This document shows positions 51,834-55,266 of a DNA stretch of 64,000 nucleotides, piece after piece (positions within the stretch are counted from its first letter, which is position 1; every line of letters begins with the position of its first letter). Below the pieces are notes generated by a model. That model saw only the letters and a list, made by a program, of their open reading frames with translations. It was not told the DNA's origin and did no database searches. Both the position numbers and the translations under genes were made by a program. The DNA is from Verrucomicrobiota bacterium. GTDB taxonomy: Bacteria > Verrucomicrobiota > Verrucomicrobiia > Methylacidiphilales > UBA1321. Location of the stretch: contig JABDGH010000001.1 of assembly GCA_013286145.1 (NCBI GenBank), positions 1 to 64,000 on the forward strand, written 5' to 3'.

Positions 51834-53249
51834 CTACGCCTTATACCCGAAAAAGAAATTGTCCTTGATGCAGGCGGCCACCTCGGGAGGGACCATCTGT
51901 TCCCAAGTGTGATCGCGATCACGAATCTTGGCCAAAATGGCCCGCGAAAAGATGCCGAGATATTCCTTGTGGAAATTTTCAATCGATTCGATGTAACCGT
52001 TTTCCGTCAAATGCTTGAACAAATGGATGAGGTGTTCCGGCAATTCGACATCGTGGATCGTCGTCAATCTGTCCAATGAGGCGTCAAGGAACGGATAGAC
52101 ATAGAGCTTGAGATCGTTCTTAAAGAGCCGCCCGAACGATTCGAGAATGCCCCCCTCGAGCATGTCGTAATACTTCACATCAAAGAGTTCCTTGAGATTT
52201 GGAATGCCCAGGACAATTCCGATCCGGCTCTTGGTGTAACGCTGGAGATACGCGGCCAGCTTGTAATATTCCGCATAATTGGAGATCAACACCATCTTGC
52301 CCACGGCGGTGATCGTGTCGGCGCGGGCGAGAAAATCGCGGTGATCGATGGAACCAGTCGTGAGCAGGTTGCGCATCGTGATCTCCATCAGCTCGACGAT
52401 TTCCTCCTGCTTCACTTCGGCATCGCGCAGGAACTGCTGGCGCGCGCCGTCGAGCATGTCGAGATTGACGTTGGTGACGGGACGAAAACTTCCGCGCTCA
52501 ACCAGGATCGGCTTTTTATGAAAGACCTCCGACGGCTGGAGCACATCGCCGTTCGCGCCGATGAGCGTCGCATTGGAAAGCCCCTTTTCGACGAGTTGCA
52601 GGCTCATCAGCCGGTTATCGACGTTGTTGAAGTAGGGCCCGATGAACTTGATCATGTCCACCTCGATGCGCGCAGTGGAGAGGCCGTCGAGCAGCGAAGC
52701 GATCAACTTTTGTGGTTCGGCGTGAAGATAAAATGCGCCGTACGTGAGGTTCACCCCGATAATCCCAAGCGCTTCCTGCTGCTGGAGGTTCTCCTTATCG
52801 ATCATGTTGACGTGAATGATGATCTCGCTCGAATGAGCCTGCGGTTGCAGTTGGAATTTGATGCCCAGCCAGCCGTGACATTCGTTCGTCCCGAGGTAAT
52901 TGCGGGCGGAGACGGTATCGGCAAACACGAAAAAAGAAGTGGAGGGACCCCGCTTGGCATTGAGCCGCTCGATCAGCAACGCAAATTCGTAATCGAGCAT
53001 GTTCTGCAACCGCGTCTGGCTGACGTAACGTTCACCCTTGCCGTAGATGGCATCGGAGAACGCCATGTCGTAAGCCGAAATCGTCTTGGCCAATGTGCCG
53101 GAAGCTCCGCCCACGACAAAGAACCAGCGCGCCACCTCCTGCCCCGCGCCGATCTCGGCAAAGGTGCCATAAAAGCGTTTATCCAGGTTGATCTGCGAGG
53201 CCTTCTCGTGCGTGGTGATCGTGGAGGTATTGAGATTTTCTAATTCCAT
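51834..53249 (-). CDS. Conserved protein of uncharacterised family
   Basis: The 471-residue protein lacks a signal peptide or membrane helix. It is recognisable as a widespread conserved family by blocks such as FAEIGAGQEVARWFF, AKTISAYDMAFSDAIYG, YVSQTRLQNMLDYEFALL, ECHGWLGIKFQ, EALGIIGVNLTYGAFYLH, VDNRLMSLQLVEKGLSNA, VERGSFRPVTNVNLDML and YYDMLEGGILESFGRLFKNDLKLYVYP. Public annotations of related proteins are inconsistent, calling them TonB-dependent receptors or nicotinate-nucleotide adenylyltransferases; I see neither family's signature. It is divergent from the FkbM gene with 165 bp between. Confidence 0.8.
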   Translation of the reverse strand: MELENLNTSTITTHEKASQINLDKRFYGTFAEIGAGQEVARWFFVVGGASGTLAKTISAYDMAFSDAIYGKGERYVSQTRLQNMLDYEFALLIERLNAKRGPSTSFFVFADTVSARNYLGTNECHGWLGIKFQLQPQAHSSEIIIHVNMIDKENLQQQEALGIIGVNLTYGAFYLHAEPQKLIASLLDGLSTARIEVDMIKFIGPYFNNVDNRLMSLQLVEKGLSNATLIGANGDVLQPSEVFHKKPILVERGSFRPVTNVNLDMLDGARQQFLRDAEVKQEEIVELMEITMRNLLTTGSIDHRDFLARADTITAVGKMVLISNYAEYYKLAAYLQRYTKSRIGIVLGIPNLKELFDVKYYDMLEGGILESFGRLFKNDLKLYVYPFLDASLDRLTTIHDVELPEHLIHLFKHLTENGYIESIENFHKEYLGIFSRAILAKIRDRDHTWEQMVPPEVAACIKDNFFFGYKA

Positions 53250-54259: not shown

Positions 54260-54811
54260 CTACTGAATAACCAGATCGACCATGCGGGGCGTGGCCCCGT
54301 GCATGTAGGTACGGCAGAAATAAATAATGTCGTCGCTGATTCGCACGCAGGTTTGCCGCCAGCGCCCAGCGGCATCGAGAATCTTGGTGCAATCGCGCAA
54401 ACCTTCGAGCCTGACTCCGGCCACCTGCACCTCCAACGCATCGCCCAATCGCTGCTTGAGCAACGGATAAAACTCAATCTCGTATGGCGCGCGCGCAGCC
54501 AGTTCAATGAGCGAAATGGAAACACGCGGTGGAACGATCATGCTTTTCCTGGCGATGTCCCGGTAACCGATGCCTTCCAGCGAGCACCGCACCATCTCCT
54601 GAAGATGATCGAGAGAAAGCGCCGGGGCGATCCAGTCATTCTCGAGATAAACGACAATGGCCCGCGCCACTTCCGGCGCCAAGTGCCAGTGGAGAAGCCC
54701 CGCCGCTGCCGCCGATTGCTCAATCGACTCGGCCAGCCAGCCTTCGGAAAGAGGTACCAGCCGGTCATTCTTCCAGATCACATGAGGGAGGCGTTGAGGC
54801 AGGGCAATCAT
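54260..54811 (-). CDS. Putative divergent ATP-cone protein coupled to nrdR
   Basis: The N-terminal 95 residues have the ATP-cone pattern: a strand (PHVIWKNDRLVPLSEGWLAESIEQSAAAAG), helices and the LSLDHLQEMVRCSLEGIGYRDIARK end (about 66-91), comparable with the ATP-cones of NrdR and class I ribonucleotide reductases. The C-terminal half (about 95-183) is unlike known domains to my eye: SLIELAARAPYEIEFYPLLKQRL and an IIYFCRTYMHG segment. Its ATG overlaps the nrdR stop by one base (TAATG), so translation is coupled. I infer a dNTP-sensing accessory role to NrdR; nothing in the sequence proves it. Confidence 0.65.
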   Translation of the reverse strand: MIALPQRLPHVIWKNDRLVPLSEGWLAESIEQSAAAAGLLHWHLAPEVARAIVVYLENDWIAPALSLDHLQEMVRCSLEGIGYRDIARKSMIVPPRVSISLIELAARAPYEIEFYPLLKQRLGDALEVQVAGVRLEGLRDCTKILDAAGRWRQTCVRISDDIIYFCRTYMHGATPRMVDLVIQ

Positions 54812-55266
54812 TATGACTCCAGGGTTAAGCTTTGGACTTCATTCACGAATTCCTTGATGTCGCGGAATTTCCGATAGACCGAGGCAAAGCGCACATAGGC
54901 CACTTCATCAAGTCGCCGCAAATGCTGCATGATTTTATCGCCAATCGCCTTGGTTGGAATTTCATCGCCATGCGCCTTGACCAGTTCATCAATCATTTCA
55001 TTAACCGTCCGCTCAATGGCCTCACGGCTGACCGGACGCTTTTCACACGCTTTATCGATACCGGCTACTAATTTGCGGCGGTCAAAAGCTTCGTAGCGTC
55101 CGTCCCGCTTCAGCACACGGAGATCATCTCGTTCAATTTCCTCGTAAGTCGTGAATCGATGCTCGCAGGCGAGGCACTCCCGTCGGCGCCGGATCACGGT
55201 CTCATCTTTAATGGCGCGTGAATCAATCACCTTATCATCACGAGCCTGACATTTTGGGCAACGCAT
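54811..55266 (-). CDS. nrdR: Transcriptional repressor NrdR
   Basis: The 151-residue protein represses ribonucleotide reductase genes according to dATP/ATP load. It has the zinc ribbon with Cys3, Cys6, Cys31 and Cys34 and the ATP-cone (about 48-135) beginning RVLKRDGRYEAFDRRKLVAGI and containing AYVRFASVYRKFRDIKEF. The length is normal. It is followed by a small ATP-cone-like gene with a one-base overlap. No ribonucleotide reductase gene and no NrdR-box pair are visible in the window. Confidence 0.97.
   Translation of the reverse strand: MRCPKCQARDDKVIDSRAIKDETVIRRRRECLACEHRFTTYEEIERDDLRVLKRDGRYEAFDRRKLVAGIDKACEKRPVSREAIERTVNEMIDELVKAHGDEIPTKAIGDKIMQHLRRLDEVAYVRFASVYRKFRDIKEFVNEVQSLTLES

Follow-up and report, generated by a model that had tools for sequence, protein, structure and literature searches.

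The window (the whole 64,000-nucleotide stretch of DNA that was analysed) carries nrdR at positions 54811..55266 of the minus strand, followed directly by a gene that we call X (54260..54811, minus strand). The 151-residue product of nrdR comprises a zinc ribbon and an intact ATP-cone and is canonical, matching TIGR00244 with an E-value of 1.4e-54 and containing both the zinc-ribbon and the ATP-cone Pfam domain. X encodes 183 amino acids, a degenerate ATP-cone followed by an α/β fragment resembling part of the class III ribonucleotide reductase NrdD, and is translationally coupled to nrdR: its ATG shares one base with the nrdR stop codon TAA (TAATG), and a GGAG within the end of nrdR (54817..54820, minus strand), 5 nt before the ATG, can be read as its likely ribosome-binding site. 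The one-base overlap given in a preliminary description of this DNA is thus confirmed. Upstream of nrdR the window contains purK and purE, and a 471-aa open reading frame at 51834-53249 (minus strand) has no Pfam match (best E 0.18).

In most bacteria the genes for ribonucleotide reductase are under the control of NrdR. To our knowledge, work on NrdR has so far treated it as a single protein, with ATP and dATP determining how it assembles. Our literature search, with most subscription papers outside its scope, yielded no description of gene X, and no NCBIfam model matched it.

The ATP-cone of X

The AlphaFold2 model of X has a pLDDT of 89.8, and its residues 5-91 (54539..54799, minus strand) match solved ATP-cones. 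Comparison with the cones of NrdB (PDB 5olk), NrdA (5im3) and NrdR (9a6n, 7p37 and 9gex) gave Z-scores of about 10 and rmsd values of 2.2-2.8 over 82-85 residues, the top structural matches lying at Z 9-10.4 with rmsd 1.9-3.0. The best or tied-best fold match, covering X residues 7-91, is the ATP-cone of Leeuwenhoekiella blandensis NrdB (5olk), an example of the mobility of cones among proteins of the reductase system; this cone, however, binds dATP and is fused to the radical-generating subunit. The Pfam ATP-cone model PF03477 scored X at 13.6 bits (E 0.1), under its cut-off of 25.8, which a diverged relative of the L type described below exceeds with 27.3 bits. In profile-profile comparisons the X cone was nearest to the cones of NrdD (E 7.4e-8), and the match to NrdR was not significant on the profile alone (E 0.033 versus 0.0066 for the best shuffle). 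A zinc ribbon is absent from X, with only about 10 residues preceding the cone. Hence the proposal that X is an ATP-cone protein lacking a zinc ribbon agrees with the predicted structure, in which the cone fold is present.

The nucleotide contacts of NrdR are made by K53, E59 and K65 (numbering of the E. coli protein; PMC12176259). K53 and K65 are conserved in all 146 neighbouring NrdRs and E59 in 136 of them, whereas the aligned residues of X are W13, V19 and W25. Trp occupies position 25 in 36 of 37 X representatives, and W, V, I or L predominate at position 13; shifting the alignment by one residue in the window protein still gives no nucleotide-binding residues, and the β hairpin of the cone is apparently lost in several X branches. 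As far as sequence can tell, this family-wide loss of the K53/E59/K65 equivalents, mostly in favour of hydrophobic residues, makes canonical nucleotide binding or sensing by the X cone unlikely and speaks against the earlier idea that X provides a second nucleotide-sensing ATP-cone. Compared with NrdR, X thus shares the ATP-cone fold but lacks both the ribbon and the nucleotide-binding residues and has an additional C-terminal domain. Pseudomonas aeruginosa NrdA likewise retains a second ATP-cone that binds no nucleotide, but that cone belongs to a working reductase, whereas X is a protein of its own, coupled to nrdR.

The C-terminal domain and its resemblance to NrdD

Residues 94-183 of X (54263..54532, minus strand), which the preliminary description could not place, form a β-α-α-β-α-α-β domain in the AlphaFold2 model. 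The best PDB match of this domain is to residues 436-578 of NrdD (8p23_B; Z 9.1, rmsd 2.9 over 88 residues), with unrelated entries near Z 6, in a VIA comparison, which realigns only chains preselected by Foldseek, a set into which the cone draws reductases. Among the matches at Z ~6 were AAA ATPases, which we took to share a common arrangement of elements. The model of a 324-aa relative (pLDDT 84.3) ends with the same order of elements as the X domain, and its last 140-150 residues match the cores of NrdD and NrdJ (4coi_B, Z 10.4, rmsd 3.1 over 137 residues), the T. maritima and T4 chains aligning to it over the C-terminal part alone.

We compared the domain with a cleaned alignment of 30 NrdD sequences from the phylum in a profile-profile approach. 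It matched NrdD columns 528-650, a segment that starts at the TINLPR motif and reaches beyond the GLIGM motif, with an E-value of 1e-5 over 79 columns, as compared to 0.0057 for the best of 120 column shuffles and 0.62 for the reversed alignment; a second, separate pair of alignments gave 1.7e-5. The C-terminal domain of a diverged form of X, the K type, matched this NrdD region too (E 1.1e-3, as compared to 0.25 for its best shuffle). No sequence match was obtained between the X domain and class I/II reductases (E 0.44) or between the C-terminal domain of the 324-aa type and NrdD (E 0.64), the latter despite the fold match. The Pfam NRDD model (PF13597) matched none of the X members scanned, and a profile search of PDB sequences with X found neither reductases nor NrdR; its matches to ribonuclease E and designed repeat proteins were judged to be chance. 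Altogether, the Pfam, NCBIfam, phmmer and PDB-sequence profile searches gave at most a weak cone match for X.

These data leave some room for a reading in which the ATP-cone of X is real but its C-terminal domain is an unrelated α/β domain with a coincidental likeness to NrdD, since the β-α-β order is generic, the sequence match appears only profile to profile and a Z-score of about 9 lies close to the noise level when a model has no relatives. We regard such a coincidence as unlikely, because fold match and sequence match fall in the same NrdD segment, all controls, whether shuffles, the reversed alignment or class I/II reductases, gave weaker matches, and the K-type domain leads to that segment as well.

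X and NrdD both begin with an ATP-cone, and the C-terminal domain of X aligns with the TINLPR-to-GLIGM barrel segment of NrdD, in the same order, but NrdD has 630-900 amino acids as compared to 183 in X. About 320 NrdD residues between the cone and the matched segment are absent from X, including the invariant CR motif (C411-R412), which we take to hold the catalytic cysteine. Also missing are the other parts of the barrel and everything that follows the segment, including the zinc cysteines C688 and C691 and the R-x-x-G-Y glycyl-radical motif (R700-G703-Y704; numbering of NrdD L231). Lacking the catalytic-cysteine stretch, the zinc cysteines and the glycyl-radical motif, X cannot, on its residue content, be a working reductase. 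X thus looks like a cut-down, catalytically dead NrdD, and its probable descent from NrdD is well supported, if not proven, by profile-level sequence comparison and structural models.

Distribution, divergence and maintenance of X

X is carried by 44 of 60 related genomes, and in all 30 loci that were fetched nrdR lies immediately upstream, the two genes mostly overlapping by 1, 4 or 11 bases or lying less than 30 bases apart. A profile search matched 64 of 387 genomes of the phylum, the last ~15 matches being weak (E >1e-6) and several of them falling on the cones of long frames of reductase size. All 28 further X loci that we inspected also adjoin nrdR, X lying directly behind it, so that 58 of 58 loci, from the same class as the window, show this arrangement. 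Among these 28 loci a large genus with genomes of 2.2-3.5 Mb is represented, which is probably Akkermansia. As X follows nrdR directly in 30/30 and 28/28 loci, the pairing is not due to chance, and it extends far beyond the source genome. The genome searches were centred on Verrucomicrobiota; a scan of named genome contigs gave six close relatives only.

The search for diverged forms started from nrdR, reading the next gene in other classes. This gene often overlaps nrdR by 4 bases and occurs in four forms besides that of the window (V): K (about 205-230 aa), L (315-340 aa), O (158-172 aa) and P (about 200 aa). Profile-profile comparison connected V with K over both domains (E 1.3e-11), V with L over the cone (E 3e-11), K with P (E 9e-8) and V with O (E 5e-4); none of the 60 column shuffles made for each pair gave a value better than 0.0042. 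With profiles of these forms, diverged relatives were found behind nrdR in 84 of 128 neighbourhoods and in 37 of 46 families from other classes, in a non-random sample that includes 20 loci picked for lack of X in the first search, omits the Akkermansia-like genus and overlaps in part with the loci on which the profiles were trained. Some 20 loci outside the training set were still recovered at E ~1e-7 or better. The same profiles detected no X behind nrdR in families f9, f15, f34 and f36, the first of which belongs to the window's own order, and X is therefore dispensable there. In one further locus (L077) the gene after nrdR, which overlaps it by 8 bases and encodes 250 aa, is matched by no profile; its start reads like cone helices, and it is possibly another, very diverged X-like gene.

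X is kept by purifying selection and is not decaying, as its dN/dS within the genus is about 0.09 (median 0.094 over 28 pairs, as compared to 0.029 for nrdR; both values are rough, with dS near 1.3-1.5).

Reductase context and possible role of X

In the window genome, which is 66% complete, a coneless, B12-dependent NrdJ of class II was the only reductase found, and no NrdD was found. In relatives, X occurs together with class I or class II reductases, cone-bearing or coneless, and with or without NrdD. We reject a role as substitute for a missing reductase cone in view of genomes in which X accompanies cone-bearing reductases, and a role as NrdD accessory in view of genomes with X in which no NrdD was detected, including close relatives that are >90% complete. 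NrdD was present in 24 of 57 genomes with X behind nrdR and in 29 of 35 genomes without X (33 with X only, 24 with both, 6 with neither, 29 with NrdD only; one-sided Fisher test, 1e-4, uncorrected for ancestry), genomes not listed as positive among the 92 being counted as negative. This tendency towards mutual exclusion of X and NrdD is only a lead. A scan for NrdR boxes gave a single weak site (12/16), which lies upstream of the reductase, and no site in the vicinity of nrdR.

Two loci of the phylum encode NrdD proteins of ~900 aa with apparently two tandem ATP-cones (L251, 942-3665, and L252, 1019-3712, both minus strand), the first with a VVGYF glycyl-radical motif. They score ~400 bits to PF13597, as compared to >500 for ordinary NrdD, and similar matches occur in many families of the phylum. 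A reductase fragment with five stops (G024:C1:1257671-1258351) lies ~2.4 kb from an intact reductase match and is probably a decayed tandem copy.

According to the literature NrdR assembles via pairs of cones, and contacts between cones also hold reductase assemblies together and regulate their activity by way of oligomers (PMC5794259). A conserved, coupled protein whose cone has no nucleotide residues would fit best as a partner of the NrdR cones. The reading that we favour, with about even confidence, is that X is a dead, shrunken derivative of NrdD that most likely works together with NrdR. A physical X:NrdR complex is our guess, and we likewise infer the direction of its effect: the X cone would pack against NrdR cones, and this packing might shift NrdR between DNA-binding and non-binding assemblies or tie NrdR to the reductase enzyme. 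As its cone lacks the residues that hold nucleotides, X would be a fixed subunit rather than a second sensor. Somewhat more tentatively, we propose that early Verrucomicrobiota may have cut NrdD down to a dead cone-plus-barrel fragment that was recruited as regulatory partner of NrdR, so that DNA-precursor synthesis in much of the phylum would be governed by a two-protein NrdR system with one subunit unable to sense nucleotides.

The distribution of this nrdR-adjacent relic across much of Verrucomicrobiota suggests that it is an unrecognised partner of a near-universal regulator. If so, a coupled partner made of reductase parts would be an extra component of the NrdR circuit in much of the phylum, probably including Akkermansia, and X would exemplify an enzyme that has come to regulate the control of its own genes.

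X might instead act on the reductase and not on NrdR, as a dead partial subunit that enters reductase oligomers, damps or stabilises them and is co-produced with NrdR so that gene control and enzyme control move together. Both X domains resemble reductase, the contacts cited above could serve this purpose, and with a coneless NrdJ as the only reductase found in the window genome a cone acting in trans is conceivable. We nevertheless give this possibility a small, if appreciable, probability, as X lies behind nrdR in every inspected locus and never beside a reductase gene, no single reductase type tracks X, and its cone has no nucleotide residues for a regulatory switch. Lower still is the probability that X does something unconnected with ribonucleotide reduction and is only carried along on the transcript of nrdR: the window has purK and purE upstream of nrdR and the function of X is a prediction, but both domains are reductase-like and many families retain the association with nrdR. 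That X is a working second sensor, binding ATP/dATP through its cone and relaying the signal to NrdR or another enzyme, is very improbable, since the fold and the coupling to nrdR that favour it are offset by the loss of both lysines that NrdR keeps throughout, by an alignment shift that restores nothing and by branches apparently devoid of the β hairpin.

As to partnership of NrdR in general, the title of PDB entry 9a6n, for which our literature search found no paper, describes an integrative crosslinking model of NrdR with Soj, and going by this title NrdR may have other protein partners.
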